Virus record (IMG/VR): IMGVR_UViG_3300043395_003057
Coordinates: 1 to 42,332 of that record
DNA: 42,332 nucleotides
Strand: one strand, 5' to 3'
From: a virus
Shown: positions 14,395-41,461 of the stretch, piece by piece
Position numbering within the stretch: position 1 is the first letter of the stretch
Layout of the letters: every line of letters begins with the position of its first letter
Program-made: the position numbers and the translations under genes
The notes under the pieces: model-generated
Told to the model about the DNA's origin: nothing
The model's input: only the letters and a program-made list of their open reading frames with translations
Database searches by the model: none

Positions 14395-14663
14395 TGCGTT
14401 TAAAGCCCCAGCACAAAGCCTACCTAGAGCGCACCGCACGCAGACTTTCGACAAGAAAAAGCCAACGCGTCTCAGAGCAAGAAGTCCTCGACGCTTTGCT
14501 GGATTTGGCAATCGCAGACGAAGGGATGTATGACCCGGCGGACACTGCGCGGCCCTATGACCCGCTTAGGCGCGAAGTGGTGCAGGCAGAGTCTAGTACC
14601 CGCCTGTCGGATTTGGCCGGCGATGCTTTGGCAAGAAAGGTCCTAGAGCGCTGCTCTGAATAA
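14385..14663 (+). CDS. Small helical protein, possible DNA-binding
   Basis: A 92-residue protein overlapping the previous gene by 10 nt. The first 45 residues are strongly basic with a helix-turn-helix-like pattern (LERTARRLSTRKSQ, then VSEQEVLDALLDLAIA), reminiscent of ribbon-helix-helix or small HTH proteins. The rest is acidic and helical. Its 3' end overlaps by 71 nt the end of a convergent - strand gene. Last gene of the MoxR/VWA operon. The function is inferred only from basic composition. Confidence 0.65.
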   Translation: MALVRLKPQHKAYLERTARRLSTRKSQRVSEQEVLDALLDLAIADEGMYDPADTARPYDPLRREVVQAESSTRLSDLAGDALARKVLERCSE

Positions 14664-15024
14664 TAGACGGACGGCGCGGCTCTCGGATTGGCACCGATAG
14701 GCGACCCTCTGCATCGTCCTCATGGATAATATCTTTTATGGGCTCTTTAAGGTGTTTGGCTGCTGTCATGCCCATCGCACCAACGCCAAGTCCGAGTCCG
14801 CCGGCTGCCGCAGTTAGTCCTATATTAGCTACCTTGGCCTTATTTCCAGAAAAAGGCATAGCCGTTGTTGTGCCTACTCTACCGCCCGTAGGTAGGCGAG
14901 GACCGCGAGGTACCGGCGATCCCGCTGTGCGCTTTATGTGATCAGCTTCTTGCGGCATTATTTCAGCCATCTTTTCAAGCTCAGAGAAGAACGCGCGATA
15001 AATATCAGTTGTGGTATTTAGCAT
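14593..15024 (-). CDS. Putative internal virion protein with N-terminal tag
   Basis: The ATG at 15024 is chosen because it lies near the upstream stop (20-nt overlap) and puts the tag YRAFFSELEKMAE at residues 9-21. The same tag occurs in the next genes upstream and in others of the block. After it come a Pro/Arg-rich section, a glycine-zipper hydrophobic segment (ANIGLTAAAGGLGLGVGAMG, about 66-85) and a basic tail. A tagged, glycine-zipper protein fits an internal head protein, possibly ejected with DNA and membrane-interacting (inference). The C-terminal 71 nt overlap a convergent gene. It is the last gene of the long - strand virion block. Confidence 0.7.
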   Translation of the reverse strand: MLNTTTDIYRAFFSELEKMAEIMPQEADHIKRTAGSPVPRGPRLPTGGRVGTTTAMPFSGNKAKVANIGLTAAAGGLGLGVGAMGMTAAKHLKEPIKDIIHEDDAEGRLSVPIREPRRPSIIQSSALGPFLPKHRRPNPTGGY

Positions 15025-15454
15025 CGCCGCGCACCTTTGCTTCGGGAGTATTATCCACAAACTGCGTGGAGGCTCGTAGCTTCTTGCGGTCTGTTGCTAC
15101 CTGCTCATCTTTGCTCAGAGAATCCCATTTCTTTTTAGGTAGGTAGCGCGCCGTGTGTCCGGAGGAACGTTCCGCCCGCTCCGGCGTACCGGGGCGTGTC
15201 TGCCAGTCCTGCTTCGTCCACTTGACCATCTTGTTGGACGAGGCAGAAGGCTTTTTGCCCGAGTAGCCACCGCCCTCGTCCTTGTACATCTTTGTAGCCA
15301 GCTGCATGGCGCGGGCAGAGTGCTTGCCGCCCATCTTGGCCTTAGCCTTGGCCTTCATACGCTCCCACAGACCTGGGTCGGTCTTGGTCGCAGTTCCGTC
15401 TTCTGCAAGCTTCTCCAGCTCAGAGAAAAATGCGGAGTAGGTATCTGCGTTCAT
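15005..15454 (-). CDS. Tagged internal virion protein, DUF5872-like
   Basis: A 149-residue, strongly basic protein. Residues 6-18 carry the tag YSAFFSELEKLAE. The rest matches, from memory, the phage and giant-virus family DUF5872: GGYSGKKP, MVKWTKQDWQTR, ARYLPKKKWDSLSKDEQ and QFVDNTPEA in the expected order. The function of that family is not known to me. The very high Lys content suits a DNA-associated internal head protein. Start ATG overlaps the previous gene's stop (ATGA). The tag followed by a short basic body is the clearest example of the set. Confidence 0.8.
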   Translation of the reverse strand: MNADTYSAFFSELEKLAEDGTATKTDPGLWERMKAKAKAKMGGKHSARAMQLATKMYKDEGGGYSGKKPSASSNKMVKWTKQDWQTRPGTPERAERSSGHTARYLPKKKWDSLSKDEQVATDRKKLRASTQFVDNTPEAKVRGDAKYHN

Positions 15455-15663
15455 GACTTCCCCAGTTTTCCAGTGCGCTTTGTGCCATCCGCCCGTGTAA
15501 TAAGCCCACGTGCCTTTAGGCGGGCGCGGGCTGTTGCGCCGATATTCTCTCCGCGCTCGTGCCGATCAAGCATTTTAGTCGTGTGCTCGACAATGCTCTT
15601 AGGCCGACCGGCGATCTTTTCCAGTTCGGCGGCAAACGCAGAGAACAGCGCAGGCGCAAGCAT
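15451..15663 (-). CDS. Small tagged basic virion peptide
   Basis: A 70-residue protein: tag LFSAFAAELEKIAG at residues 6-19, then an entirely basic remainder (KSIVEHTTKMLDRHERGE, ARARLKARGLITRADG). It starts at an ATG overlapping the previous stop (TAATG). Removal of the N-terminal ~18 residues would leave a ~50-residue basic peptide, comparable to the small internal peptides of other large phages. The family name is not known to me. Confidence 0.75.
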   Translation of the reverse strand: MLAPALFSAFAAELEKIAGRPKSIVEHTTKMLDRHERGENIGATARARLKARGLITRADGTKRTGKLGKS

Positions 15664-17144
15664 TACTGCTGTCCCGAAGTAGGAGACTTCTTCTTTAGGA
15701 AGTGCGACACAGAAGGAGCAGCCAGCGTGCCCAGGCCCACTAGCTCAGTGGAGTGCTTAACTGCGTCGCTTTCGCCAAAGCGGTGAAGGCCCGGCATCTT
15801 AAACTTCTTGCCGATTACCGAAGCTGCGGCAGGTACGGCGAGAATCCCTAGCCCTGCCAGCTCTGCGCCGTGACCAAAATTGTCATCGGCTGCCAGTTTT
15901 GCAGCTGCGGCCCATTTCTCGTTTTCTTTACGCTCTGCAAGGACCTCAAGTAAGGAGGCTGTTTTCTCCGGGAGCCGTGAGGCAGAGCGATAATTCCCGC
16001 CCGCTACGGCCGCCCGGATGCGGGGGTGAAGGCTTTCCTGTGCATTGCGTAGCTCGGCAAAAAAATTTGGGTGTTCACGGAGAACTGCCCTAAGCGGCCT
16101 AAGCTGTAGCTGTGGATGAGCTGGTACCGGAACTGCTGCTTTCTTTTCTGAGTGCACGCGAACCTCCGTCTTCACGGGGCCGTTGTGCCCCTCTCCTGTT
16201 TTGCCCTTGGGCCAAAGAACTTTACGCGCCCAGTAATTTGGACTGAACGGATCGTCCTTCGTAAGCTGCCCACTCTTGTTCCGGATGCCGGCAGAGCGCG
16301 TCAGGTAATTCTGCTTGGCCTCGGGGCTGTAGTTATGCTGGTAGCCCTTCTGCCCGAAGTGGACGAGCTTTACCTCATCTCCCTTCTTGGCGAGCACCAT
16401 CATCTTCTTGTCTTTCTTGTCTGACGCTATGGGCTTGTTGTACCCAGGGAATGTCTTGCCGTGGTACTCGACTTCGGCACTTTTCTTAAAGTCGTCAAGT
16501 ACCTGCTTGTTTAGCTCTTCCTGCGCCTTCGAGTCTTTGTTTCTTCTCTCGCGCAGACGGGCTACAAGTTGTCTTGTTTTTTCTATACGAGCCGGATCGT
16601 GTCTCTTGCCAGTTACCGGATTTAGTCCCTGCTCCTGAAGCTTACGAAACTCCTTTAGCTGGTGGCCATACATCAAAGCCCCGCCGCCAAGTCCGCCAAG
16701 GAGTAATGGAACTCCGACACTCGGTTTTATAGGAGTAACGCCAGCGCCCGCAATTACAGGCAGCATCCCTACACCGACGGCACGGCCAAATGCTTGGTTC
16801 TTTGAAAAGTCGTCGCTGCGGGGGTCAATAAATCCTTCTCTGCGCGGTTTTGCGAGAAATTCAGGAATGACACCGGCATTTTTAGAGTGCGTAGCATGGA
16901 GAAGACGCACCATCATCTCTAGGTCTCGCTGCGTAATTGTGTCTTTTGGGCGCTTACCAATTAAAGCAAGAGACCTTGCGTGAAGCTCAGGATCAATTGC
17001 CCACTCGGCCACAAGTGCATCAGCCATGCGATGCACTTCAGCGGGCGTCAGGGATTGCTCTCTTTCTGCAATTTTAAAAAAGGTAGAGCCCACTGACTCC
17101 TCCTTTGTTTGTTGAAAACGGCGGAAGGATGCCAGTGGGCCCAT
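15663..17144 (-). CDS. Large tagged virion protein with internal DUF-like domain
   Basis: A 493-residue protein. A tag-like segment STFFKIAE lies at residues 20-27. Residues 115-160 are a Gly/Pro/hydrophobic segment resembling a paired membrane helix. Residues 225-312 form a compact basic domain (MVLAKKGDEVKLVHFGQKGY, YLTRSAGI, SPNYWARKVLWPKG) like uncharacterised phage domains I recall as DUF5754/DUF6321. Residues 390-400 contain PEKTASLLEV, another candidate cleavage site, and the C-terminus has two similar short hydrophobic repeats (GHGAELAGLGILAVPA and HSTELVGLGTLAAPS). I infer an internal or tail-associated ejected protein. It follows the tail-tube gene. Confidence 0.75.
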   Translation of the reverse strand: MGPLASFRRFQQTKEESVGSTFFKIAEREQSLTPAEVHRMADALVAEWAIDPELHARSLALIGKRPKDTITQRDLEMMVRLLHATHSKNAGVIPEFLAKPRREGFIDPRSDDFSKNQAFGRAVGVGMLPVIAGAGVTPIKPSVGVPLLLGGLGGGALMYGHQLKEFRKLQEQGLNPVTGKRHDPARIEKTRQLVARLRERRNKDSKAQEELNKQVLDDFKKSAEVEYHGKTFPGYNKPIASDKKDKKMMVLAKKGDEVKLVHFGQKGYQHNYSPEAKQNYLTRSAGIRNKSGQLTKDDPFSPNYWARKVLWPKGKTGEGHNGPVKTEVRVHSEKKAAVPVPAHPQLQLRPLRAVLREHPNFFAELRNAQESLHPRIRAAVAGGNYRSASRLPEKTASLLEVLAERKENEKWAAAAKLAADDNFGHGAELAGLGILAVPAAASVIGKKFKMPGLHRFGESDAVKHSTELVGLGTLAAPSVSHFLKKKSPTSGQQ

Positions 17145-17158
17145 AACCTGTCCTCGAA

Positions 17159-17863
17159 TTACTCGATGCCCGTAATCAGAGAGACCGCAGCAACGTTGAT
17201 TGGGACAACACGCTCGTACTGGATCGAGACGCTCTCTTGGATGACCACGCCCATCGCGTCCGTGCCAATCTGGTGGCTCGGGATGTAGCAGGACTCAAAG
17301 TAGTACGCCGCGAGAGTACTCTCGTTGCTGTCCTTCATGATCAGCATGAGGCCGATAGGCTGCGAGAAGAGATCTGACGCGAGGTTCAGATACACGTTCT
17401 CGTAGCCGGGTGGGATCATGACGTCGTGCTGGTTGTCTACTGTTGCAGACCCAATGTTGGAGAAGATTGGGTCAACAACCGTGTCGGGGATTACGTCGCT
17501 GTAGTACGCGTACAGAACACGGAGCAGCGACGGCCCGTGGTACATGACGCGCGCCAGACTGAGCTGGCCCACGGTACGACCCGGGATGAAGTAGCTACGT
17601 GAAGAACCCAGCTCGAAGAAGCGGGCTAGGTTCATGTTCTGTCCGAGCGACCACTGCTGCACCAGTCCAATCGGATACGCAATCTGGTCCTCAAAAGAAG
17701 ACCCGCTTCCGACTAGGGCCGCTGCAACGGCAGAGCCACCAACGTTGGCAAGGCGCGGCGGACCCGCAGCCAACAGCGTAAACGCTGCCGACATGAATCG
17801 GCCGTCGACCATGCCCCCCTGGACATACTGATCGTAAGGCTGCCATTGACTAAGGGTTGCCAT
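17159..17863 (-). CDS. Putative tail tube protein
   Basis: A 234-residue protein without tag or membrane segments, beta-rich with conserved-looking patches (WSLGQNMNLARFFELGSSRS; YFIPGRTVGQLSLARVMYHG). Its size and position just after the sheath gene are those of the tail tube in contractile phages. AGGTGAAAC precedes the ATG at 17863. The sequence resembles large-phage tube or structural proteins as I remember them, but I cannot point to a diagnostic motif, so a minor tail protein remains possible. Confidence 0.65.
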   Translation of the reverse strand: MATLSQWQPYDQYVQGGMVDGRFMSAAFTLLAAGPPRLANVGGSAVAAALVGSGSSFEDQIAYPIGLVQQWSLGQNMNLARFFELGSSRSYFIPGRTVGQLSLARVMYHGPSLLRVLYAYYSDVIPDTVVDPIFSNIGSATVDNQHDVMIPPGYENVYLNLASDLFSQPIGLMLIMKDSNESTLAAYYFESCYIPSHQIGTDAMGVVIQESVSIQYERVVPINVAAVSLITGIE

Positions 17864-17882
17864 GTTTCACCTACTTAATTGA

Positions 17883-18344: not shown

Positions 18345-18355
18345 GGGAAATCTCC

Positions 18356-23242: not shown

Positions 23243-23243
23243 T

Positions 23244-26423: not shown

Positions 26424-27581
26424 TCAGAACACGACAACGCGCGGGAAGGTGAGACCATCCGCAACCTTGTTGTTCTGCTGGCCGAGGTTCTCGACCGCAA
26501 CAGGCTGGGCCGCCTCGTAGCCCGAATCCGTCGCATCCGTGACGACTGAGCCGGAGTACAGCTCAAGCTTCACGACAGCGGCGACGTTTCCGATGCCCAT
26601 GCCGACGTCCATCCACGCCTGCCAGTGAATGCGGTTCACAATCTTGTCGATGTAGAACTTCACATCATTGAGCGTGTAGTTACGACCGAAGAACTCCGGC
26701 GCCGTGAAGACGTAAACGTTACCCTCGCGGAGGATATCGTTCTTGATCGTCTTGATGATGCGGAGGCCGACAGCCTTGTTGTAGGACCAGCCCTCAACAG
26801 CGGTCTCGCCCGTGAGCTGAGAACCGAGGTCCTCAAGCGTCCACTGGTCGAAGTCGTCCGCGTCAGACTCGGTGATGAGCATGACGGCGGGGCGCAGACG
26901 ACCGGCGCGGATCACGTTGCCCGACGAGTCAAGGATCTGGCGCTTGAGGAGCTTCTTGATGTTGACGATGTCCGGACGCTGAATCGCGCGGACAACGAAA
27001 TCATCAGAAGTGGCCGCGAGGGCGAGGCTGCCCTTGAGCTTGGACACGCCAACAACCGAGCCGGCGTTAACGCCAGAGGTGTTGAACGCAGCCGCACCGC
27101 CGTTGCCCTCAGACTGCATGCCCTCAACACACGCCTCAACGTGGATGAGGAACTCGCGGTCCTTGACCTCGACCATGTCCTTGAGCGAGTTCTCCTCGAT
27201 GATGCGCGTGATGGGCATCTCGTAGGCCATCAGCTCCTGCTCAACAATCTCGAACTTCTCAGACGAGATAGTGAAGAAGCCGATCGCGTAACGCTTTCCG
27301 TTCACGTACGTCGCCGAAGGAAGGCCGCGGAAGTTGAGCGGCATGGCCTTGGAGCCCGGCTCAATGTCCACAATCTTCACGAGCGTGTCGTGCTCGGTGG
27401 AGCGCTGCAGATCGCCACGAACAACGCGCTCGTTCGGGATGATCATGTCCGTGAAGGAGGCCTCACGGAGACGGTCCTTGATGTAGGTAAGAGAAGCGGC
27501 AGCCGTCTTCGACTGGCCCTCGCGCGTATCAAGCCGCTCAATGAAGCCGGCGTTGATTAGCTCAGCGGAATAGGTTTCCAT
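26424..27581 (-). CDS. Major capsid protein (HK97-fold type)
   Basis: A 385-residue protein. The N-terminus (about 1-30) is a likely propeptide ending in GQSKTAAASL, which contains the block-wide K-T-A-A motif. There follow LREASFTDMIIPNERVVRGD (38-57), a long helix-rich segment (MAYEMPITRIIEENSLKDMV), and C-terminal beta patterns (REGNVYVFTAPEFFGRNYTL; VAAVVKLELYSGSVV). Size, composition, the central place in the head operon, the adjacent attenuator and the optimised codons all fit the major capsid protein. Removal of about 26-29 residues by the prohead protease would be expected in this fold. The sequence resembles T4/large-phage MCPs in layout rather than in a single signature. Confidence 0.85.
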   Translation of the reverse strand: METYSAELINAGFIERLDTREGQSKTAAASLTYIKDRLREASFTDMIIPNERVVRGDLQRSTEHDTLVKIVDIEPGSKAMPLNFRGLPSATYVNGKRYAIGFFTISSEKFEIVEQELMAYEMPITRIIEENSLKDMVEVKDREFLIHVEACVEGMQSEGNGGAAAFNTSGVNAGSVVGVSKLKGSLALAATSDDFVVRAIQRPDIVNIKKLLKRQILDSSGNVIRAGRLRPAVMLITESDADDFDQWTLEDLGSQLTGETAVEGWSYNKAVGLRIIKTIKNDILREGNVYVFTAPEFFGRNYTLNDVKFYIDKIVNRIHWQAWMDVGMGIGNVAAVVKLELYSGSVVTDATDSGYEAAQPVAVENLGQQNNKVADGLTFPRVVVF

Positions 27582-28182: not shown

Positions 28183-28557
28183 TTAATCTGCCCCGAGGCA
28201 GAGTTCGGTGAGAGGATCAACTGCACCGCGCCCAGGGGCGTCGGCTACCTTCGCAAACCGCACCTCTCCGCCAGCCGCCATGCCAACGGCCTGACGAATG
28301 AGGGATAGATCCGAGTACTGCGAAATGTGCGCAACCTTTTCCTCAAAGGACATTTCAGCGTTCAGGCCCTTGGACTCCATCTCATGAGCAAGCTCACGAA
28401 CGGAATCCTCATGCTGACGCTGCTCAAGGTGAGCGCGAAGCTGCGCGTTCTCGTCCGCAAGGGACGCAACCTTCTCTGCCAGAGAGCGCAGCATTTGCGC
28501 GCCTCGCGCAGATACGATTGCGGCCTGTGCAGACCCAATCTTAATTGTATTTGACAT
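28183..28557 (-). CDS. Coiled-coil head protein, scaffold-like
   Basis: A 124-residue protein with a heptad-like helix (about 20-60: MLRSLAEKVASLADENAQLR and on) and a second helical module (ELAHEMESKGLNAEMSFEEK; LSLIRQAVGMA) seen, in my recollection, in several phage structural proteins. Sites EKVASLAD and AKVADAPG match the block's K-x-A motif. The ATG overlaps the previous stop (TAATG). It precedes the decoration and capsid genes, so a scaffold or core role is reasonable. Confidence 0.65.
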   Translation of the reverse strand: MSNTIKIGSAQAAIVSARGAQMLRSLAEKVASLADENAQLRAHLEQRQHEDSVRELAHEMESKGLNAEMSFEEKVAHISQYSDLSLIRQAVGMAAGGEVRFAKVADAPGRGAVDPLTELCLGAD

Positions 28558-29171
28558 TAGGAATCTCCGTGAGGCGGATTCGGGGAAATTGAGCCAGTTG
28601 CTGTTTCAGTAGTTTCGCGCCTTTTCAGTAACTCTGCAAGGCGTTGTCTACGGAATCGGTCACTTTTGAAATCTGCACTCTCTGTTACAGCAGATTGTTC
28701 CGTTGTAACAGGTTGTTTTACAGCACCGCCGCCAGCGGCGGGGGCATTTGCTGCTTTACGGTGATTGTGCGCTTCGGCTTTTCTACGAGAATACTCGTGT
28801 CCAAGAGCCCCACCAATAGATGCCCCAACAACTCTACCAGGGAGACCATGTCGGACGTGCCCAAAGCCCGCTCCAGCGGCGGAACCTAGTAAAGCGGCGC
28901 GACCATGCCCATGTTCGGACAAAAGACTCGCAGATACCGGGCCTACGGAGCTGGACACCCCAGGTAGTGTTGCCCCAAGGCCGCCTGCTGCCGCAATTCT
29001 AAGAGATCTGCGGCTTAGTAACCCAGGCTTGTCGTCGTCTTTTTGGTGTAGCGGTGCGTACTCTCCGCGCATGCCTTCATAAACCCCGACAGACGCGGCC
29101 TTAACGACCTCACCTAGTGAGCCCGACATGGCCGCTTCCGAAAGCACAAGCAGATCGCTTAGAGTGCGCAA
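28557..29171 (-). CDS. Glycine-zipper virion protein with N-terminal KAAS site
   Basis: A 204-residue protein that begins at a TTG with AAGGAT Shine-Dalgarno 8 nt upstream, overlapping the previous stop; an ATG 14 codons in is the alternative. EVVKAASVGVYEG (21-33) has the K-A-A-S motif. Residues 58-130 are Gly/Ala-rich with His and Arg (LRIAAAGGLGATLPGVSSSV; GSAAGAGFGHVRHGLPGRVV; ASIGGALGHEYSRRKAEA), like the glycine-zipper proteins that insert in membranes. The C-terminal ~70 residues are low-complexity and polar. A candidate ejected or core protein. Confidence 0.65.
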   Translation of the reverse strand: MRTLSDLLVLSEAAMSGSLGEVVKAASVGVYEGMRGEYAPLHQKDDDKPGLLSRRSLRIAAAGGLGATLPGVSSSVGPVSASLLSEHGHGRAALLGSAAGAGFGHVRHGLPGRVVGASIGGALGHEYSRRKAEAHNHRKAANAPAAGGGAVKQPVTTEQSAVTESADFKSDRFRRQRLAELLKRRETTETATGSISPNPPHGDS

Positions 29172-29176: not shown

Positions 29177-29374
29177 TTATCCTTGCGAAAGTTCGCGCAT
29201 ACGACGCTCGCGCGCCCCATGCTTCATGTCTGTAAGTTTCTTACGCGCGTACAGCGTCCCAGCAGCCACACCGCCTACTCCTAACGCCCCAAGAGCGACA
29301 TTACGGCCGCACTTAGTTTTTAGAAAGTCACCGATGTGTCCTGCACCACGTTGCACATGGTCTTGGAAATTCAT
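29177..29374 (-). CDS. Small duplicate of the adjacent core protein's C-terminal module
   Basis: A 65-residue protein whose residues 8-65 match the last ~58 residues of the neighbouring 386-residue protein at 53 of 58 positions. The module is amphipathic plus glycine zipper: GDFLKTKCGRNVALGALGVG, then TLYARKKL and RERRMRELSQG. It starts at ATG shortly after the upstream stop. The duplicated module therefore exists both fused and free. A free short membrane-zipper peptide could partner its parent in the virion (inference). Confidence 0.75.
   Translation of the reverse strand: MNFQDHVQRGAGHIGDFLKTKCGRNVALGALGVGGVAAGTLYARKKLTDMKHGARERRMRELSQG
29180..29353 (-). repeat. Copy A of a duplicated 58-codon module
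   Basis: Encodes residues 8-65 of the small protein. It differs from copy B at five residues (I/V, C/G, T/K, H/Q, A/S) with many silent differences, indicating an older, selected duplication. Confidence 0.85.
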
Positions 29375-29377: not shown

Positions 29378-30538
29378 TCAGTACCCCTGTGAGAGTTCGC
29401 GCATACGGCGCTCACGAGAGCCCTGCTTCATGTCCTTAAGCTTCTTGCGGGCGTAGAGAGTGCCGGCAGCCACACCACCGACACCAAGGGCCCCAAGAGC
29501 GACATTACGTCCTCCCTTAGTCTTCAGGAAATCACCTACGTGACCTGCTCCGCGCTGTGCGTAGCCAGTTGCGGCATCAATGTTCTTTTGCGCTAGCTCA
29601 GACTTGATAGGGGTTGAAAATGCTCCTGGGGCAGCGTCGGCGGCCTCCTTCTGGAGACGGGCGGCCAGCTGAACAACAGAGGCCTTCTTCTCGGCCTTCT
29701 CATCCTTCTTGGCCTCTTCCTTCTCCTCTTCCTTCTTTGCAGCGGCCATCGCCTTTGCTACTTGTGCAGGAGAAGCGGCGACCTTCATCCCACCCTTAGC
29801 CGCAGCTAGGGGGAAGGTACCGGCGGCAGACTCCATGCTCTGTGCGGTGTCGCCTGAGTGTGCAAAAATCTCGCTTAGGCGGCTACGCGACGGCGCGTGC
29901 AGCTCGCGGCGCTTGGCAGCAACAATTCTCTCGCTAGAGGAAAGCGGGCCCTGTGCGTGGCCGCCCTCCTGGCCCTTCGGATGCGCGGGCGGGGGCTGCG
30001 TAGAGTCCATCTGGCGAGGGGATGCTGCGCCGGACTCGGCAGCAATCTTGGCCATCCGCGCGCCCATCAGCATGTCGTATAGGCTTGCAGCCTTAGTCGG
30101 ACTGGCAGAGGGGGTCTGCTCAAGCGCATTACGAGACATTGCGCCATCCGGCGCGGTTGTCTGCTTAGGTGAGTCACCAGAAACAAGGCCTTGGGGTGCC
30201 AGCTTCGCCTTGCCTGTCTGCGGGGCGACTTTCTGTGTTCCTGACGTCATTGTCTCGGTGACGAGGGGCTGTGCTACTGCCTTCTTCTTGTCGGCCTCTG
30301 CCGCTGTCTTGAAGAAGTCACGCACCATTTCAACGCGCGCAGCACCCATGGCTGTACCGTCATCGGCGGTTGCCATGGCTAGATACTCAAGGGCATTGGC
30401 AAGCTTCTCAGCCTCAGCCAGCACATCACCACCTGCAATCGGAGCAGAGGCAAGCTTGTCAGTGGCATGAGGATGCCCGGAAGCAACTTTCATACGGGCA
30501 CGAGCAATTGCGTCATCGATCAGGCTTTGGTAGGACAT
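29378..30538 (-). CDS. Core/scaffold-like virion protein with many K-x-A sites
   Basis: A 386-residue protein. Sites of the block-wide motif occur at KVAS (17-20), KLAS (28-31), KTAA (77-80, in FFKTAAEAD), KVAP (103), KLAP (112), KAAS (149-152), KIAA (164), KVAA (252) and KKAS (284). Residues ~263-285 are a highly charged Lys/Glu coiled stretch. Residues 328-385 are a glycine-zipper module duplicated as a separate gene. A disordered, site-rich protein of this kind resembles a prohead core protein that a maturation protease cuts into peptides (inference). ATG start at 30538 follows an 83-nt gap after the upstream gene. Confidence 0.75.
   Translation of the reverse strand: MSYQSLIDDAIARARMKVASGHPHATDKLASAPIAGGDVLAEAEKLANALEYLAMATADDGTAMGAARVEMVRDFFKTAAEADKKKAVAQPLVTETMTSGTQKVAPQTGKAKLAPQGLVSGDSPKQTTAPDGAMSRNALEQTPSASPTKAASLYDMLMGARMAKIAAESGAASPRQMDSTQPPPAHPKGQEGGHAQGPLSSSERIVAAKRRELHAPSRSRLSEIFAHSGDTAQSMESAAGTFPLAAAKGGMKVAASPAQVAKAMAAAKKEEEKEEAKKDEKAEKKASVVQLAARLQKEAADAAPGAFSTPIKSELAQKNIDAATGYAQRGAGHVGDFLKTKGGRNVALGALGVGGVAAGTLYARKKLKDMKQGSRERRMRELSQGY
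29384..29557 (-). repeat. Copy B of a duplicated 58-codon module
   Basis: Encodes residues 328-385 of the 386-residue core protein, upstream of copy A in the transcript. Same orientation, about 30 bp between copies. Confidence 0.85.
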
Positions 30539-30621: not shown

Positions 30622-31116
30622 TTACGTACCGGGGACGCTAGTAGATGAGTGCGTCGGACCCGCCACGCTGCCAAATGAAGGCGTTGCTGTCTGAATAGCC
30701 GGTGTGGCTTTTGCAGTCCCGGTTCCGGGTATAGGCCCCTTGGAGTGGGTGCCATGTGCGGATGCGCGGCCAGTGCCGCCAGCTACGCCCTTGAGAGCAT
30801 TACCCGCGGGCCTAGCCGCGCCGGGCAAAGACATGACTTTTGCCGACGTTTTAAATGCAGAGGCACCTACCTGACCAATTTTCTCTATTTCATCAAAGAA
30901 CGCAGACCATACCTGTGCTTCTGCGGTCTTTTGGTACTCGGAAGGGCTACGGTACTTCGTCTTGGCCGTACGACGACCCTCAGAAGTACCGTAGCCCTGT
31001 GGAGTTTTGCCTAAGGCGTGTGCCTGCTGGGTTGCAATCGCAAAAGCCTCTCCTTTGTCCATTTCTGGATTCTTTTGGAGAAGACGCTCAGCGCGATTAT
31101 GGATCCAAGCAGGCAC
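30622..31116 (-). CDS. Tagged virion protein with a KYRSPSEYQKTAE motif
   Basis: A 164-residue protein starting at GTG. Residues 8-47 contain a helical pattern (RLLQKNPEMDKGEAFAIATQ, then GYGTSEGRR) of a type found at the start of several phage virion proteins. Next come KYRSPSEYQKTAE (54-66) and the tag VWSAFFDEIEKIGQ (69-82), here internal rather than terminal. The C-terminal half is Gly/Pro/Thr-rich and probably disordered. Two candidate cleavage sites next to each other (KTAE, EKIG) make it a good test case for the processing hypothesis. Confidence 0.7.
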   Translation of the reverse strand: MPAWIHNRAERLLQKNPEMDKGEAFAIATQQAHALGKTPQGYGTSEGRRTAKTKYRSPSEYQKTAEAQVWSAFFDEIEKIGQVGASAFKTSAKVMSLPGAARPAGNALKGVAGGTGRASAHGTHSKGPIPGTGTAKATPAIQTATPSFGSVAGPTHSSTSVPGT

Positions 31117-31124: not shown

Positions 31125-31931
31125 TCAGACGTCGTAGCCATTCGCGCGGAGGAGGTCGAGGGCCGCCGCGTCAACCGCCTCGTCGAACGTCGGCTCTTGG
31201 AGAGCCTCAAGGATCTCCATGGCGCGCTGCTCAACGACGGTGTCGAAGGCCGACTCCTTCTTCATTGCCTTGTGCGCAAGGTAGCCCGCACCACCCACCG
31301 CGCCCGCGGTGAGGCCGGCCTTGCCGACGCCACGACCAAGCTGCTTGTACGCATGGGAGCGATGACCCGCGGTCTCCGCTAGCAGCGCGGGGTTCTTACG
31401 CAGCGCCTCAGGAAGGTTCTTCTCTCCCTTGTTGATGGCGCGGAGGCTCTTAACGGCGTCGCGGATGTCACGGTAGCCAGTGACGTTCCCGACACTCTTT
31501 GCACCTGAGCGGGCCTTGCTCTTGCCCTTCTCGTACATGTCCTTTGCCTCTTCCTTGAGGTCGCTGCCAAGACCACGCATGCCCTGGCCCATGGAGCGCA
31601 GGCGGCCCGGGGTCTCGTCCTTTGCGATCTTGTCCATCTCGTCGGCGTAAACGCGGGCCATGTAACGGCCGATGTACTCGGCCTCAGCGAGCTTGGCAGA
31701 CGCCTCCTTGACGGCGGCCTCGGCAAGCAGATCCTCGGCAGAAGCGGACTTCTCAGCCTCCTCCCCGCCGTTGGCCCAGAACTCGTAAAGCTCCTCGGCC
31801 TGGTCCTCGGTCAGCTCCGAGAGATCGATGCCCTCGGCAGCGGCTGCCTCGGCGAAAAGACGTGCAGATGCGGCCTTCTCCAGGTCTTCCTGGGTGACGC
31901 CGGCCTCAACTAGTGAATCGAAGATTGACAT
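31125..31931 (-). CDS. Tagged core protein with three KxAS sites
   Basis: ATG at 31931 with AGGAG upstream is preferred over a longer frame. The 268-residue protein opens MSIFDSLVEAGVTQEDLEKA and carries KAAS (19-22), KSAS (61-64), KEAS (75-78), then YIGRYMARVYADEMDKIAKD (86-105), a form of the F-x-x-E-x-x-K-I-A tag. There is a Gly-rich basic stretch (GAKSVGNVTGYRDIRDAVKS) and near the end a hydrophobic GKAGLTAGAVGGAGYLAHKA. EAAAAEGIDLSEL and ELYEFW (26-52) form a helical module I have seen in other phage structural proteins. A prohead core or internal protein is inferred. Confidence 0.7.
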   Translation of the reverse strand: MSIFDSLVEAGVTQEDLEKAASARLFAEAAAAEGIDLSELTEDQAEELYEFWANGGEEAEKSASAEDLLAEAAVKEASAKLAEAEYIGRYMARVYADEMDKIAKDETPGRLRSMGQGMRGLGSDLKEEAKDMYEKGKSKARSGAKSVGNVTGYRDIRDAVKSLRAINKGEKNLPEALRKNPALLAETAGHRSHAYKQLGRGVGKAGLTAGAVGGAGYLAHKAMKKESAFDTVVEQRAMEILEALQEPTFDEAVDAAALDLLRANGYDV

Positions 31932-31993
31932 GATGGAATTACTCCTGTTGGGATTGTTTGGCCTCATCGGGGTTCTCCCCCTCAGCCGAGGTT

Positions 31994-33853
31994 TTAACCT
32001 ACTGGAATATTCTGCCAGTAGGCAAGGTGGAAAAGAAGTGAAGAAAGTTCTGCTGATGCGTCTGCTAACTTGACCTCTTGTCCGAGGTCAAAGATATCCG
32101 ATGCTTCTGGTAGTTGTAAATGCCGCAAAGACGGCCGAGAAAAAAGTAATCCGCCGCGGTAATCATTATACGCGTGAGAAATCTTATCTAGCACTGGATC
32201 AGAGTGCTCAAACGCATCGCTGCGCTGGGCAGGCAGTACGCGTGTAATACGAATTCGTACCGCCGCCGGCGCAAAAGATCGTTGCGCTAGTAGATTACCA
32301 AGTACTTGCCGCAAAATATCCATCGTTAAAGAACTTGGCCGAGGTTCTGTCGAGAACTCAGGCATCTGTTCCATATCTATTGGAGAACGACGAAACACAA
32401 TTCCACCGCCTCGGTAGCCCTCAGCGGCGTCTGGATTTTGCCGACAGAGTGCCATGTACTGAAACTCTTCGGGGCGAAGAACAATTCCCAGGTGTGCTAG
32501 TCCACGAAGTGACTCATCTGGGCGATCTGCTAGGTCGCGCAGAAGTGGAGTCGTAAGCTGCGGCATACGCGACTCGTGATCGCGCAGAATAGAAATCTGC
32601 GACGCGGAGGGCGCAGGGATGTTCTTAAGCATCTCTGCCCATTTACTGAGGGCGGCAGTCTTGGTCTCCGCACCAAAACCCTCTACGCCGTCAATCCGCG
32701 ACTTAAGGTATGAAAAATGGTCAAGCGGCTGCCCATAAGTGGACTGGAAGTTCTCATCAACTTCCTTTGCCACATCCCCAGCACCCTTAGAGCGGGCCTT
32801 TCGTGCATATGCCACCGCAGCAGCGCGCTCAATTTTATTGGACTGCGGGATGCCATCAAGGATCTGCGTCAGCCGATCTTCTACCTTGGTGCCTTCTCCG
32901 CGCTCAACAATCTTCCGCATTGCTTCGCGCATTGTGCTTACGTCTTCTTGCTGCTGTGTGGGCACAATAGACGCAACTTTGACGCCGGCAGGCTGAAACG
33001 GGTAGATTTTTTGTGAGTACTTATTTGGCCCGCGTACCCGGTCGTTAACCAAGGACATGACCTTGGCAGACCGCTCTGCGCCAACAAATACAAAAGAGTC
33101 GTCAAAGAAGCGGGGATGGTGGTTGTATACCCCGCACTTCCTTCCGTCTGGCAGGATCTTGTTCATACCAAACAACGGATCCTGATTATTTACGTGCTTA
33201 CAGTATTCAGCAGGATTGCGTGCTTTGTTGCCGCAAATAGAGCACTCATCAAACGGGACTTTTGCACCCATCGATGAGTCTGGAAATTCTCCGTGCTCAA
33301 TCCGCTCATAAATGTCGAGGGCATTTAGGCTCTCGCACATGTCGCGAACAAGCTCGGAAACCAAAACCACGCGGTGCATTCTATGGTCGTAGAATGCACC
33401 TAAAATAAAGCCGTACGCTTTAGCGGGGTCTTTATTGATATGGTGACGGAATCGGTGTGCGTTGTAAAAAGTAGGGTATCCCCACGCCTGATCACCCCAG
33501 CCGGGCACGCCCTCTGTCGTATTTGCGGCACGACGACGCGCGTCAATATCCCAAACCGGAATTTTGTCCCAGCCGGGTGGGGTATGAAGAAGACCGCGCT
33601 CCGTGAACCAGTCACCGCGCAGATTGAAGCCAACAAACTCACCTGCCCCAATTGCGGAGTTTACTAGGTAGAGCCGCCCTGGCTGCGGGGCCAGGGACTC
33701 CACCAACTCGCGAACCTGCGGGAGGTGTTCGTGGGATGCCGTCTTAGAAAGGTCTCCTGTTTCTGACAAACCGTAGCCCGTACCCGGCTCAATACGATGA
33801 ATGAGCGGGCGACCTTCACCGTTGGTACCGCGGAATAGGGAGACCTTTTCCAA
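31994..33853 (-). CDS. Putative prohead maturation protease / core protein
   Basis: A 619-residue protein starting at TTG with TAGGAG upstream. Residues 37-40 are KTAS, suggesting self-cleavage near the N-terminus. Residues ~61-200 look like a phage prohead protease domain: FYNAHRFRHHINKDPAKAYG (129-148) supplies a candidate catalytic His133 and FPDSSMGAKVPF (190-201) a candidate Ser (193/194). A zinc-knuckle-like CSICGNKARNPAEYCKH (204-220) follows. KVAS (292-295) and KTAA (about 396) may separate the protease from a long helical C-terminal region. The fold is inferred from the H...SxG layout, as in HK97/gp21-type proteases; other roles are possible. No other protease candidate is visible in the head operon. 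Confidence 0.6.
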   Translation of the reverse strand: MEKVSLFRGTNGEGRPLIHRIEPGTGYGLSETGDLSKTASHEHLPQVRELVESLAPQPGRLYLVNSAIGAGEFVGFNLRGDWFTERGLLHTPPGWDKIPVWDIDARRRAANTTEGVPGWGDQAWGYPTFYNAHRFRHHINKDPAKAYGFILGAFYDHRMHRVVLVSELVRDMCESLNALDIYERIEHGEFPDSSMGAKVPFDECSICGNKARNPAEYCKHVNNQDPLFGMNKILPDGRKCGVYNHHPRFFDDSFVFVGAERSAKVMSLVNDRVRGPNKYSQKIYPFQPAGVKVASIVPTQQQEDVSTMREAMRKIVERGEGTKVEDRLTQILDGIPQSNKIERAAAVAYARKARSKGAGDVAKEVDENFQSTYGQPLDHFSYLKSRIDGVEGFGAETKTAALSKWAEMLKNIPAPSASQISILRDHESRMPQLTTPLLRDLADRPDESLRGLAHLGIVLRPEEFQYMALCRQNPDAAEGYRGGGIVFRRSPIDMEQMPEFSTEPRPSSLTMDILRQVLGNLLAQRSFAPAAVRIRITRVLPAQRSDAFEHSDPVLDKISHAYNDYRGGLLFSRPSLRHLQLPEASDIFDLGQEVKLADASAELSSLLFHLAYWQNIPVG

Positions 33854-33864
33854 GACTGCGTCTC

Positions 33865-34968
33865 CTACTTCTTCTTGCGCGTCGTCATGGGTAGGCTGGT
33901 GCGCACGCCAAAAGCGGCAGTAGTCGTCGGGCTACGCATCAACCGAGCAATATCACTGCCGGTCCTACGTTCCATGTTGTCTGCGCGAGCCTCCGCCGCA
34001 TTGAGCTTGTTCTGCATCTCTTGAAGCTTCTGCGTAAGCTCGCCCATTCCCTGTGCGTGCTGTGCCGCCAGATTGGCACTCGCGGCGTCTCTATTTTCTT
34101 TTCGGATCTCTGTATTCGTCTTCTCTTCGCCCTTGTGCGTCTCAAGCAGGCGAGAACGCTCGTACTTAAGAGTTTCCATGTCGTGCATGTTCTTGCGGGC
34201 ACGCTGATCGCGCATGTACTCAGAGCCCGCCTGCACACCTGCACGGTTCGCGTCAAGCAGAACATCGCGTACGGCATCACGACGCTTCCCAAGCTCTCCC
34301 GTAAGAGACGTCAGCGTACGTGCGGTCTCTAGCTCGACGGTGGGCAGCGAGTGCGGGTCACTCGGGTTTCTACGCTCAAACTGACGCACTAAATACGTGC
34401 TTGCCGTAAGCGGATCCTTCGCAACCTCGGGGCTAAGGCGGCGGAGCGACTGGTAGACTAAACGAACCTGTTCTTTCGGGTAGTTAGAGAGTTCCGGGCG
34501 TACCTTTAGGGTTGCCTGCAGATCCTTCTCAAAGGTCATGGAGTCGTACGCGGACTGAATTCCGTGAGACATACCCATGACAGCTAATCCGCCGACCGCA
34601 GACGCCGCTGCGGTACCCATCCCAACACGAAACGCGTCGCCAAACGAGGCATTCTTCTGGAGGTATGCGCTAAATGCCTCTAGTTGCCCCACCTCAGTTT
34701 CGTCTAAGTGGCCCTGCGCACGCGCGACGTAAACTTCGTCAAGGATCTGTCTGTGCATAGGAGAGTTCTCCGCGGAAGCAAATTTAAATTGATTAGGGCC
34801 TAGGTCGGCTACGGTCCCCAAAGGCCCCACTTGTTTCTTTACTAAGGCTGCCTGAAAGTGAGGGCGCATGCCTTTTCTAAAACCGGAGGCTGCAAATGGT
34901 AAGCCAGCGTCAATACCGGCCCCAACAGTAGTCCCTACGGCCAGCGGTAACAGAATATTAGGAGGCAA
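33865..34968 (-). CDS. Head-associated protein with coiled coil
   Basis: A 367-residue protein starting at TTG (11-nt overlap with the gene before it). It begins with a hydrophobic, Gly-rich segment (ILLPLAVGTTVGAGIDAGLP, 5-24), then QFKFASAENS (61-70, one K-x-A-S site). A second hydrophobic segment lies around GTAAASAVGGLAVMGMSHG (about 117-135). Next comes a helical module LRRLSPEVAKDPLTASTYLV (about 173-192) that resembles phage structural proteins, and a long charged coiled coil (about 235-335). The C-terminus is basic. Likely a membrane-interacting internal or core protein. Confidence 0.65.
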   Translation of the reverse strand: MPPNILLPLAVGTTVGAGIDAGLPFAASGFRKGMRPHFQAALVKKQVGPLGTVADLGPNQFKFASAENSPMHRQILDEVYVARAQGHLDETEVGQLEAFSAYLQKNASFGDAFRVGMGTAAASAVGGLAVMGMSHGIQSAYDSMTFEKDLQATLKVRPELSNYPKEQVRLVYQSLRRLSPEVAKDPLTASTYLVRQFERRNPSDPHSLPTVELETARTLTSLTGELGKRRDAVRDVLLDANRAGVQAGSEYMRDQRARKNMHDMETLKYERSRLLETHKGEEKTNTEIRKENRDAASANLAAQHAQGMGELTQKLQEMQNKLNAAEARADNMERRTGSDIARLMRSPTTTAAFGVRTSLPMTTRKKK

Positions 34969-35869
34969 GGCCGTCTCTTATCTTGAGGGCTGCTGTGCGG
35001 ATATCCGCCCGAAGCTCATCAAGTGCAATAGAAAGGCTTAGTACGTCTTCTTGTGCGGAAGCCACTTTTGCAAAATGCCGCGCCAGCGGGTGCTGCAAGT
35101 TGGGCGCGGCAACACTTGCGGTCTTCTCACGGGTGCGCACATCAAACCCGTGGGACTGTAACGTCTCTGCAAGCTCGCACACAATGTCGTGCGCAATCTT
35201 TGTAGATACGTTGTTTGCTTCTGCGGTGTGGTAGCAAAGTCCAAGAACATCGTCTACCGCTGCCCCGTCCTTGCAGGACTGCACTGCCTGTGCAAACAGA
35301 TGAGCAGACGCGGTTTTTGCCGCCTGATCCGCAGAGTCTCTGTCTAGCGCCACTTTTGTGGCTGCATCACGAAGAGACTGGTAGATACGCGATACATCCC
35401 CTAGAGGATTGTGCCAGCGGTCGTGGCTTGCGACTTTTGCCACATCGGCAGACAGGACAGTCGCAAGGTACGGATTTACTGGCTGGTACTTTTCACGGGC
35501 GGGAGTACCCGCCACCGCACTTGCCGCCTTAAGGAATTCTACGGGCTGGAGCATGCGCCGGCCTTCCGGTGCGGATGCCTTTTTCTCGACGGCCATAGCG
35601 TTAAGCTCCTTTGCGCACTGTACAGCATCGGGCGGATCGAAAGAAATATACCGATCCATGCTTCCGCGCTTTTGATGAAACGAACGCTCGAATGCTTCGT
35701 GGTAGGTCATCTCGCAAATACGCCTAACATGCTCTTCCGTTAGGGGCAGGCGACTGGCGGACGCCTGTTTAACAACGGCAGATGTAAGGTTCGTGCCGGC
35801 CGCAAGGAAATCCCCTGCGGCCTGCCGCGCAATACTCATTAGATTATCGGCCGTGATTACAGTAGGCAT
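34958..35869 (-). CDS. Prohead core-like protein with seven KxAS sites
   Basis: A 303-residue protein that opens the long - strand virion block. It contains seven copies of K-x-A-S: 34 (KQAS), 96 (KKAS), 114 (KAAS), 145 (KVAS), 185 (KTAS), 249 (KTAS) and 268 (KVAS), spaced by 18-64 residues. Between them are helical segments, including LTEEHVRRICEMTYHEAFER (43-62). No membrane segment. The regular distribution strongly resembles a scaffold that is shredded by the maturation protease. The family is unrecognised. Confidence 0.75.
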   Translation of the reverse strand: MPTVITADNLMSIARQAAGDFLAAGTNLTSAVVKQASASRLPLTEEHVRRICEMTYHEAFERSFHQKRGSMDRYISFDPPDAVQCAKELNAMAVEKKASAPEGRRMLQPVEFLKAASAVAGTPAREKYQPVNPYLATVLSADVAKVASHDRWHNPLGDVSRIYQSLRDAATKVALDRDSADQAAKTASAHLFAQAVQSCKDGAAVDDVLGLCYHTAEANNVSTKIAHDIVCELAETLQSHGFDVRTREKTASVAAPNLQHPLARHFAKVASAQEDVLSLSIALDELRADIRTAALKIRDGLAS

Positions 35870-37021: not shown

Positions 37022-37039
37022 GTAGCAGGTTTTGAAGGC

Positions 37040-37076: not shown

Positions 37077-37082
37077 AGCTGT

Positions 37083-38840: not shown

Positions 38841-38891
38841 AAGTAAATGCTATCCGCGTTTGGGTAGTATTTCCACCACACAGGAGGCCAC

Positions 38892-39566
38892 ATGGCCAAT
38901 TTGGCAGTGCTCGCCGGAAGGGAGATCCGGGAGAGCAGGGAAGGTGTTCGTAACGGCATTCGGTACGAACATGCTTGGATGATCATTGACCGCTTGCTTG
39001 TGCCGGGCAAGCAGGGTTTCGACAACGTCACCGAAAGCAGCGGGGCGCTTCGTAGCGTTCCAAAGCTGCTTTTGGCGCTGGAAGAGGCAGCGACGGCGCG
39101 GCCAATTGGCGCCGTCATCGAAACCGGGTACACCATGCCCGGAAAGCTCTACGTCCCCCAGTTTGGGGAGGCTTTCTCCGGACTGGTCCACGGGCACGTA
39201 GCACTGTTCAGGACTGAGAAGGACAAGTCGAACGATCGTCCGCCCGAGATTGTTCGCTTCCTTACAGTCAGCAACCCCGCCACGGGAAAGCTGACGCACA
39301 TCCGCGTCACGCCCAAGGAGGGGGACAACCGGTTCCCTACGGCTCCTGACGAAATTCAGAGCATGGTACGGGCAGCCTACCTGCAGACCGTAGCGGAATT
39401 TCCGCTCTGGCAGGAAGTGACAGTGGGCCCCAAGGGCCCGAACTTCATGGGGATCACCCATGTAGGCCAGACCCGAGAGGGACCAAACATCCCGGAAAAG
39501 GCATCTTCGGGCCTGACGGCCCGGATGTTGGCGGATAGTCTCTTTGGGATGTTCGACAACGGATAG
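38892..39566 (+). CDS. Unknown 224-residue protein divergent from TerL
   Basis: The ATG has a strong CAGGAGG Shine-Dalgarno. The protein is globular mixed alpha/beta with conserved-looking segments (GIRYEHAWMIIDRLLVPGKQ; PEIVRFLTVSNPATGKLTHI; KGPNFMGITHVGQTREGPN). No catalytic motif is evident. It starts a three-gene + strand operon with a small protein and RNase HII, so a DNA or RNA metabolism role is possible but unproven. The long opposite-strand frame here is rejected as a shadow. Confidence 0.8.
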   Translation: MANLAVLAGREIRESREGVRNGIRYEHAWMIIDRLLVPGKQGFDNVTESSGALRSVPKLLLALEEAATARPIGAVIETGYTMPGKLYVPQFGEAFSGLVHGHVALFRTEKDKSNDRPPEIVRFLTVSNPATGKLTHIRVTPKEGDNRFPTAPDEIQSMVRAAYLQTVAEFPLWQEVTVGPKGPNFMGITHVGQTREGPNIPEKASSGLTARMLADSLFGMFDNG

Positions 39567-39569
39567 TAA

Positions 39570-39905
39570 ATGCTGAAGAGTCTCACCTGGGTCAAATCAT
39601 TCGCAGAAAGCACTAACCGCGCTTTGCTAGAAGGATTGCTCGGGTGGGACTTACAGCCGGATGACGCGGACCCCCTCAAATGGGGTCTGCTTATCCGCTT
39701 CAAGCAACCGATCAAGGCGGAGGAGGCTCGCGTTGTGCGCGACCTCCTCCGCCAATGGGCCGAGGTTAACAACGCCTCGTATCGAAAATCAAAATGGCAG
39801 GGTTTTGATTTTACGGCCCTAATCTACGTAAAAGGACTGGGACCAGTCATGGATAACAATCCTTTTGTGGAGGGAGAACGTGAACACATACTGCGGACTC
39901 GATGA
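39570..39905 (+). CDS. Unknown small protein between a phage gene and RNase HII
   Basis: A 111-residue protein starting 3 nt after the previous stop. It has a Trp-containing N-terminal half (SLTWVKSFAESTNRALLEGL), mixed helices and a basic middle (YRKSKWQGFDFTALIYVKG). Its end overlaps the RNase HII start by 26 nt. Family unrecognised. The tight packing supports it as a real gene. Confidence 0.7.
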   Translation: MLKSLTWVKSFAESTNRALLEGLLGWDLQPDDADPLKWGLLIRFKQPIKAEEARVVRDLLRQWAEVNNASYRKSKWQGFDFTALIYVKGLGPVMDNNPFVEGEREHILRTR

Positions 39906-40476
39906 GGTCGGGACCGGCTGCCTTGCCGGGCCTATTATTGCCGTTGCCGTTCAGATGGACATGGTTCTAGACGCGTGGCCTATGCCCGAGGTCAAGGACT
40001 CCAAGAAAACGACAGCAGCGCAGCGCGCACGAAACGTAGAGAGCATCCTGCGTTTCATCCACGACCAAGGCGGTGTAGTAGGCGTGGGCGAGTCAACCGT
40101 AGAAGAAATCAATCAGCTGGGGCACATGCCCGCCTTGCAGCTTGCGTACAAGCGCGCCGTGCGAGAAGCCACACTATTTCAACGCCCAAAATTGCTAATT
40201 GTTGACGGTGATTTTGGCGTTGATGGATACCCAGGGCCGCAACGCATCATGCCAAAGGCCGACGCAAACAACTTTTTATGCGCGGCGGCATCGATCATTG
40301 CAAAGGTCTACCGAGATCTAGATATGGACACACTTGCAACGCAGTACCCCGCGTACAAGTGGGAAAGCAATAGAGGCTACGGCACTAAGGAACACGTAGA
40401 AGCCCTACACGCGTATGGATTGTCCCCCCTTCACAGAGAGAAGGCAGCCCATACTGCCCTACGAAAGGTAGCCTAG
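39880..40476 (+). CDS. rnhB: Ribonuclease HII
   Basis: Start taken as the GTG at 39880 (GGAGGGAG upstream), giving 198 residues, the usual family length. Signatures: CGLDEVGTGCLAGPIIAVAV (5-24; catalytic Asp8, Glu9), KDSKK, LIVDGDFG (Asp109), AAASIIAKVYRD (Asp146), YPAYKWESNRGYGTKEH and SPLHR. It cleaves the RNA of RNA/DNA hybrids and ribonucleotide junctions; a role in phage replication or RNA-primer removal is likely. The family's GRG loop, which reads the RNA-DNA junction, is GTG here, i.e. Arg to Thr. The stop overlaps the convergent gene by 4 nt. Confidence 0.94.
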   Translation: MNTYCGLDEVGTGCLAGPIIAVAVQMDMVLDAWPMPEVKDSKKTTAAQRARNVESILRFIHDQGGVVGVGESTVEEINQLGHMPALQLAYKRAVREATLFQRPKLLIVDGDFGVDGYPGPQRIMPKADANNFLCAAASIIAKVYRDLDMDTLATQYPAYKWESNRGYGTKEHVEALHAYGLSPLHREKAAHTALRKVA

Positions 40477-40646
40477 GCAGGCTGTGCGATAGGCACCTTT
40501 GCGGGCGACACCGCAGCCGTAGAAGCTTTTGGTGCTTGCGTAGCTGCGACGTTGAACGTCGGCTTAGTAGAAGGGGGTAGCGGCGACATCGCCGCTACCT
40601 TTTTTAGCTCATCGCCAAAAGCGCGAAGAACTGCCACTGAAATCAC
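40473..40646 (-). CDS. Small tagged virion-type protein
   Basis: A 57-residue protein read from GTG at 40646, which overlaps the previous stop (GTGA) and has GGAG upstream; a GTG at 40661 is the alternative. The tag LRAFGDELKKVAAM (7-20) matches the virion family tag. The remainder is Pro/Ala/Thr/Val-rich and probably disordered (PLPPSTKPTFNVAATQ). Its coding region encloses the + strand terminator of RNase HII. It follows a beta-rich virion gene. Confidence 0.65.
   Translation of the reverse strand: MISVAVLRAFGDELKKVAAMSPLPPSTKPTFNVAATQAPKASTAAVSPAKVPIAQPA
40577..40605 (+). terminator. Terminator of the RNase HII operon, inside an antisense CDS
   Basis: GTAGCGGCGA (40577-40586) pairs with TCGCCGCTAC (40589-40598), a near-perfect 10-bp stem, followed by CTTTTTT. 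It is oriented for + strand transcripts and lies within the - strand gene at 40473-40646. Confidence 0.8.
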
Positions 40647-41461
40647 AGGATGCGCTCCCACGTGAGCAGCACCTCAAGGTTGTTAGTGCCGGTATTGGGT
40701 ACAAGCTCAATCCAGCGACTATCGCGCGTAGTAAGATCGAGGGTATTTGAAATTGACATTAGAAGATTTGCGGCACCAACGCCATTTGTCAGCGTAATGG
40801 TCCCAACGGCTGACGGAGGATGCGCCTTTGCGGAGTCGCAATAAATAGCCCAGCCAACCGTTGCTGCGGTGCCCGAAAGTAGCTTTAGCGACAGGTTGCT
40901 TAGGCGCGCGCGCACAGGGACATTGTCCGTGTCGGGCATTAGCGAGTACGTATACGTCGCATTTACAGCACCCGTAGGAATTTTTCCAAAGGGCCACTTC
41001 ACTGTGAAATTGCCGGTAGCGTAGTCAATTACGCCAACCTGATTTCCAGTCTCTGCATTGACCAAGAATCCAAACCCATCGTCCTTAACAGTAAACCCGA
41101 CACCACCCGGATCAGAGATTGAGAACGAGTCTGGGATCACGTAGGTGTACGAGACCGTTCCACCGAGGGAGCCAGTAGACTGGTCGGGGGTGCCCGCGGC
41201 CTCAGAAGGCACCGCAACGCGGAGAGAACATACTCGGACAGTGGCCCCACCAGTGCCCACGCCCGTAGCCAGTCCGTACGCTGTTCCCGCAGGACCATCG
41301 GTCGTGTCAATAATGTCACGCCCCATTCCGTCTTCGTAGAACACCGTCCAGAAGTTCGAGGCGTTCATCCATAGAACGTAGACATCCGCAATGTCGAGAC
41401 CCTGCGCGTTCATCCAGCGCGTCATCTCGATTTCGGTGCGGAAAGAGGTAGAGCGGATCAT
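40643..41461 (-). CDS. Beta-rich virion/tail structural protein
   Basis: A 272-residue protein. The N-terminal ~50 residues are mixed, with Trp pairs (MTRWMNAQGLDIADVYVLWM). From about residue 60 the sequence is alternating beta strand with Gly/Asp turns (LGGTVSYTYVIPDSFSISD; VGVIDYATGNFTVKWPFG), like a fibre, baseplate or decoration domain. No tag. First Met just after the upstream stop. The precise role is not decidable. Confidence 0.65.
   Translation of the reverse strand: MIRSTSFRTEIEMTRWMNAQGLDIADVYVLWMNASNFWTVFYEDGMGRDIIDTTDGPAGTAYGLATGVGTGGATVRVCSLRVAVPSEAAGTPDQSTGSLGGTVSYTYVIPDSFSISDPGGVGFTVKDDGFGFLVNAETGNQVGVIDYATGNFTVKWPFGKIPTGAVNATYTYSLMPDTDNVPVRARLSNLSLKLLSGTAATVGWAIYCDSAKAHPPSAVGTITLTNGVGAANLLMSISNTLDLTTRDSRWIELVPNTGTNNLEVLLTWERIL

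Follow-up and report, generated by a model that had tools for sequence, protein, structure and literature searches.

A recurrent K-x-A site and a portable N-terminal tag: a candidate capsid-targeting and maturation system in large environmental phages

Introduction

In the capsid-targeting sequence of phage T4, which gp21 removes, the targeting residues lie in the N-terminal half and the processing residues at positions 8 and 10; T4 internal proteins are ejected into the host (PMC9026906). The prohead proteases of SPN3US (gp245) and phiKZ recognise A-x-E or S-x-E and cut after glutamate (PMC10052503, PMC5694885). Here, we analysed a 42,332-base viral record from IMG/VR (IMGVR_UViG_3300043395_003057; the whole stretch is referred to as the window), whose head genes share a short K-x-A-(S/A) motif and a longer tag built around it. 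We consider it likely, judging from sequence, that capsid targeting and maturation in this phage resemble those of T4 but follow a separate code, by which proteins would be sorted into the prohead and cut after K-x-A. Positions are those of the window, with the strand given as (−) or (+).

The likeness to T4 lies in a short conserved N-terminal tag on otherwise unrelated proteins (predicted to be internal proteins in the window phage), in one type of site at the capsid N-terminus, in the protease and many times in the scaffold, in a head-module protease encoded beside scaffold-like and capsid genes, and in apparently separate targeting and processing parts. Unlike T4, whose motif is (L/I)-x-E, the window phage is enriched in K-x-A, its protease has no detectable sequence relation to gp21, and tags of this kind are carried by both small proteins and large enzymes and also occur as internal linkers. 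Since the motif differs and homology of the protease to gp21 was not seen, we describe the system as T4-like in its presumed working without filing it as a T4-type member. With SPN3US gp245 and phiKZ it would share P3-x-P1 recognition, a serine favoured at P1', auto-cleavage and several ejected head proteins with pro-peptides (PMC10052503, PMC5694885), whereas their pro-peptides are mostly longer than 100 residues without a compact shared tag, and the residue pair of the window is K-x-A, not (A/S)-x-E. The proteases of Bacillus phage G (gp19) and of cluster C phages (PHROG 18299/2774) are homologous in their catalytic domain, which retains H and S, and the head module of phage G also has K-x-A as its top pair. 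In contrast to the window, no common N-terminal tag has been described in phage G or cluster C phages, and the phage G capsid has R-V-A at the place matching K25-x-A27 of the window capsid.

Results and discussion

A first-pass annotation had listed six strict tags, and we found all of them with the letters given: AFFSELEKMA (14965-14994) in gene 14593-15024 (−), AFFSELEKLA (15404-15433) in 15005-15454 (−), AFAAELEKIA (15610-15639) in 15451-15663 (−), AFFDEIEKIG (residues 72-81) in 30622-31116 (−), VYADEMDKIA (31623-31652) in 31125-31967 (−) and AFGDELKKVA (residues 14-23, 40593-40622) in 40473-40661 (−). The same holds for FFKIAE in gene 15663-17144 (−), FFKTAAE in 29378-30538 (−), KTAA at residues 25-28 of the capsid protein, KTAS at residues 37-40 of the protease and seven K-x-A-(S/A) sites in a 303-residue protein (34958-35869, −). 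K-x-A-(S/A), noted there as absent or rare in TerL, ParB, MoxR, sheath and tail fibres, is absent from all of them. The carriers had been called virion proteins; they do bear the motif, and for most of them virion status is suggested by gene position.

Six strict tags compare with about 0.02 expected from residue shuffles of the window. In the 25 open reading frames (ORFs) of 14593-35869, counted here as the structural module, K-x-A-(S/A) occurs 34 times against 8.9 expected, a count reached by none of 400 within-protein shuffles, and still against 10.0 expected when residues were shuffled within blocks of 14, which keeps local composition. The other 25 ORFs of the window hold one occurrence (4.5 expected). 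The control motifs R-x-A-(S/A), E-x-A-(S/A), K-x-x-A and KA, together with reversed and shifted versions, were at expectation in the window. A motif frequency equal to background in non-virion proteins, named in the first-pass annotation as speaking against its proposal, was found neither in the window nor in most relatives. The tag and K-x-A-(S/A), treated there as two signals, proved to be one: a common consensus, E-(L/M/F)-E-K-x-A-S-A, surrounds K-x-A in head modules, which rules out separate signals, and by its sequence the F-x-x-E-L-x-K-I-A tag is a K-x-A site with a longer N-terminal half.

The candidate head maturation (prohead) protease (619 residues, 31994-33853, −) matches PHROG 18299 'head maturation protease' with E 9.8e-6, and the proteases of relatives match the same profile with E values from 2.6e-19 (phage G gp19) to 2e-6. 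Its gene adjoins the scaffold-like genes 29378 and 31125 and the capsid gene 26424, an order kept in relatives. H138, N140, G188 and S194, and likewise K37 and A39, are kept in 12 of 12 homologs with identities from 53% down to 28% (phage G gp19), and in a set of 22 homologs with 38-94% identity K37-x-A39 (33737-33745, −; K37-T-A39 in the window) is 100% conserved. Several homologs have a second conserved K-x-A closing the catalytic domain. The AlphaFold model (mean predicted local distance difference test, pLDDT, 67) lays the protein out as a catalytic domain at about 45-255, a low-confidence linker and a helical C-terminal domain; sites 292 and 398 lie in low-confidence linkers. In several relatives (L036:4241-6931, L019:2666-5806 and records G018, G020, G023 and G044), intein-like insertions directly follow the catalytic S-M-G; the protease active site is likely an intein hot spot.

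The major capsid protein (26424-27581, −) matches PHROG 2522 'major head protein', and its model matches HK97 and other HK97-fold capsids (Foldseek, E down to 6e-8). K25 and A27 of its site K25-T-A27 (27501-27509, −) are invariant in sets of 16 and of 22 homologs with 38-94% identity, and the site lies in a low-confidence stretch of the model (24-39). PDB sequence searches with capsid and protease found no relative; the phage G capsid in PDB (6wkk) was deposited with a sequence starting at Met1 and is uninformative on processing.

Summed over families, K-x-A-(S/A) was observed 123 times against 11.4 expected in the family of the 303-residue protein, 100 against 15.8 in that of 31125, 75 against 22.4 in that of 29378, 66 against 9.8 in the protease and 50 against 3.4 in that of 28183, compared with 3 against 8.2 in the sheath and 0 against 2.6 in TerL; other tail and regulator families were near expectation. 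Five of the seven sites in the 303-residue protein are conserved at 0.76-1.0, other lysines at 0.25. The scaffold/core-like protein 31125 has sites at residues 31, 73 and 87, and its tag, at about residue 106, is internal; relatives keep this ILGRHMARAYADEMDKIA-type helix as an internal version of the tag. Members of its family have one to four repeats of a unit that includes LFEK(T/Q)A, with a K-x-A site in each. In scaffold-like homologs (L012:5536-6969, L017:4630-6144 and others), the number of LFEKTAAAEGIDLDD...ELYNHYVENVLPEQ units expands and contracts, again with one K-x-A site per unit. The Ala-rich core/scaffold-like protein 29378, which includes FFKTAAE, holds eight K-x-A-(S/A) sites (1.8 expected). 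Next to it, a 65-residue ORF (29177-29374, −) nearly duplicates its last 60 or so residues, a partial tandem duplication. In protein 30622, KTA stands at residue 63 and the tag, beginning at residue 72, is internal as well, between two domains.

Other copies of the tag are N-terminal and portable. Across 12 genomes, 32 strict tags were observed against about 3 expected, mostly within the first 45 residues. In the closest relative (G001), eight N-terminal tags are scattered over the genome, including those of the orthologs of 14593, 15005, 15451 and 40473. Gene 14593 probably starts at the ATG at 15024, which makes its tag N-terminal, as in the G001 counterpart MLSTMTDIYTAFFSELEKLA at 5001-5396. 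The window proteins 14593 (tag sequence MLNTTTDIYRAFFSELEKMA), 15005 (MNADTYSAFFSELEKLA, with a PHROG 14910 domain), 15451 (MLAPALFSAFAAELEKIA) and the small protein 40473 (88% identical in L001) are named here as tagged cargo candidates.

We then searched IMG/VR with a DNA pattern that encodes A-F-x-x-E-L-E-K-(ILVM)-A and, as control, with one in which the order of these residues is reversed. The tag pattern was found in at least 120 stretches and the control in 33; among the matches listed, after deduplication, 70 of 102 tag hits lay within 60 residues of an ORF start, compared with 9 of 23 control hits. Much of the remainder belongs to two ordinary protein families, a portal-like one (RLQRAFVSELEKIAVVHL) and one reading SIDQSGSVSDGMLVAFYAELEKLA, whose internal hits were set aside as unrelated. 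In the 70 N-terminal tags, the median distance from the start to A-F is 10 residues. When they are aligned on the lysine, free upstream positions reach up to 2 bits (D at P7, I at P14), while all positions beyond the alanine carry about 0.1 bit each; such a sharp end of conservation is the pattern expected of a removable tag. In one phage (L172:617-3367, also L228), a stretch of 3 kb holds four genes that start with MNF(Q/E)(E/Q)AFFDELEK(I/L/V)A, the MNFQEAFFDELEKIA tag, and then diverge completely. A tblastn search with a 20-residue consensus found no isolated phage carrying the tag, and a literature search did not find the tag string in published papers.

Contigs picked by the N-terminal tag alone carry the protease family in 28 of 34 cases, control contigs in 1 of 24 (p 2e-9). 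Above 50 kb the proportions are 26 of 29 and 1 of 10, above 80 kb 19 of 19 and 1 of 5; on the contigs of 60 kb or more with the three non-N-terminal pattern hits, no protease was found. Most tagged proteins match nothing and many are small; the matches obtained comprise SNF2/DEAD-type helicases, a DarB-like antirestriction profile, GNAT acetyltransferases, a glyoxalase-fold protein, a KptA-like profile and the PHROG 14910 domain also present in window protein 15005. Helicases (SNF2-type where resolved) bear the N-terminal tag at L175:766-2928, L186:75-1571 and L242:13974-14660, and the tag suggests that they are packaged in the head and injected. DarB of phage P1 is an antirestriction protein packaged in the head, which makes the DarB-like match notable, as a lead rather than a test.

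Relatives of the major capsid protein were found at 34 IMG/VR loci, and relatives of both capsid and protease in Salmonella phage Arash and Vibrio phages D69, D148 and D181; host clues were limited to metagenome-assembled genome bins of mixed origin. Along 11 whole genomes or contigs, the excess of K-x-A-(S/A) is highest in the bins around the protease gene (Arash 23 against 4.9 expected, D69 26 against 5.4), and in nine of these eleven it was unmatched by any of 200 local shuffles. The distant isolate phage G has 22 against 6.2 expected in the 37.7 kb examined. In a scan that ranked all residue pairs at spacings 1-4, K-x-A came first in pooled head modules (713 against 425 expected) and not in the rest of the same genomes. 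By genome, it ranked first in Arash, D69 and phage G; in the window head module, K-x-x-S was first and K-x-A second. As a control, the scan of T4 gp67, 68, 21, 22 and part of 23 put L-x-E and I-x-E ahead of all others among 504 pairs. These are the known gp21 cleavage motif, and the scan thus recovers a prohead-protease specificity. Pair ranking in head modules (L310, L315) might also serve to read specificities of prohead proteases for which none is known.

The recurrent site, its restriction to head modules and tagged proteins, its conservation, the sharp boundary and the link to one protease family form the observed basis from which we infer cutting and sorting. The first-pass proposal of a phage-own recognition sequence gains support from the module-only excess, the invariant capsid and protease sites, the T4 control, the sharp tag end and the co-occurrence with the protease. 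In the system we propose, the serine protease 31994-33853 (H138/S194) would recognise P3 lysine together with P1 alanine and cut after the latter. It would free itself from its pro-segment at K37-T-A39, trim the capsid protein after residue 27 (a loss of about 27 residues) and chop the scaffold at many K-x-A sites. The N-terminal half of the tag (I-x-x-A-F-x-D-E-L) may mimic the helix that the scaffold itself carries (ILGRHMARAYADEMDKIA in relatives) and in this way dock cargo on the scaffold core. Cargo would then co-assemble into the prohead, lose its tag to the protease and, once freed, probably be injected with the DNA.

In an unlikely alternative, the head protease would cut the sites, but the tag would play no part in targeting and would serve purely as an efficient pro-segment of proteins that are sorted in another way. 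K-x-A in capsid and protease indeed needs no targeting, and Arash and D69 have the sites with essentially no strict tags; yet conservation of the upstream half, I-x-x-A-F-x-D-E-L, extends far outside the K-x-A core, and this half recurs on proteins that are otherwise unrelated and lie dispersed across the genome. The motif could also be a docking motif left uncut, i.e. a helix that brings proteins to the prohead by binding to the scaffold or the protease. The scaffold-like proteins bear the tag internally, the tag reads as an amphipathic helix, and the T4 capsid-targeting sequence keeps targeting (4, 7) apart from processing residues (8, 10) (PMC9026906). We regard docking without cleavage as quite improbable, as it leaves unexplained the invariant site in the capsid N-arm and the protease pro-segment, the many scaffold copies and a conservation that ends exactly after the alanine. 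That K-x-A arises by chance or helix periodicity in Lys/Ala/Glu-rich helical scaffolds is hardly credible, Ala/Lys-rich as the carriers are, and is ruled out as the cause by the block shuffles (34 against 10) and the unenriched K-x-x-A, KA and R-x-A-(S/A), with sites far more conserved than other lysines.

Further observations, like the tag-poor genomes of Arash and D69, weigh against a targeting and maturation system based on K-x-A. Foldseek found no PDB fold match for the protease model, whose predicted template modelling score (pTM) of 0.39 is low, and hhalign of the protease against one T4 gp21 sequence gave E 0.62 with no profile link; the identity of the protease therefore rests on the PHROG profile, the conserved H and S and the gene position. 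The head modules of G006 and G009 are weakly enriched. The true SPN3US motif, A-x-E, ranked 23rd in the pair scan, which is hence a good but incomplete test. Among phages with protease homologs, K-x-A is weak (Myrna) or absent (Skog) in cluster C mycobacteriophages, and no excess was found in Yoloswag, BcepSauron, PpuM-Illi-2 and Rctr197k, whose homologs are distant; the code thus seems bounded, being weak or absent in cluster C and Yoloswag-type phages. In the literature searched, we found neither virion proteomics for any K-x-A phage nor data on cleavage in Arash, phage G or cluster C phages.

In a wider sense, we lean, with reservation, towards a widespread and previously undescribed capsid-loading code, by which large environmental phages would put a portable 17-residue tag, M-x(n)-I-x-x-A-F-x-D-E-L-E-K-I-A, on dozens of unrelated effectors, with a tag that copies a scaffold helix and is removed by the K-x-A protease. 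With the same reservation, these effectors would include helicases, DarB-like antirestriction proteins, acetyltransferases and small membrane-like proteins. The cargo list appears much broader than that of T4 and the recognition code different. If this holds, sequence alone would reveal, through the tag, which proteins are injected by a phage; the tag would mark the injected repertoire, mostly unannotated, of a large group of uncultured phages and yield a testable list of first-infection effectors. Prohead proteases would gain one more specificity, with the cut after K-x-A instead of glutamate, and the tag could serve as a portable means of loading phage heads with proteins of choice. The pair scan, with the T4 motif recovered as control, may offer a general sequence-only way to read prohead-protease specificities.

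Further carriers in the window are a head-module protein with two sites (33865-34968, −; K105 conserved at 0.59), a small head-module protein with site K29 (28183-28557, −; 0.94 conserved), a head-module protein with site K24-A-A followed by S (28557-29171, −) and the 493-residue protein 15663-17144, which has further K-x-A sites after its N-terminal FFKIA and a domain matching phrog_220. Clear identities elsewhere comprise TerL (37083), sheath (18356) and a MoxR-like ATPase (11297). This ATPase and the protein after it, which by its sequence looks like a vWA/CobT-type partner, lie at 11297-13995 (+) beside the structural genes.

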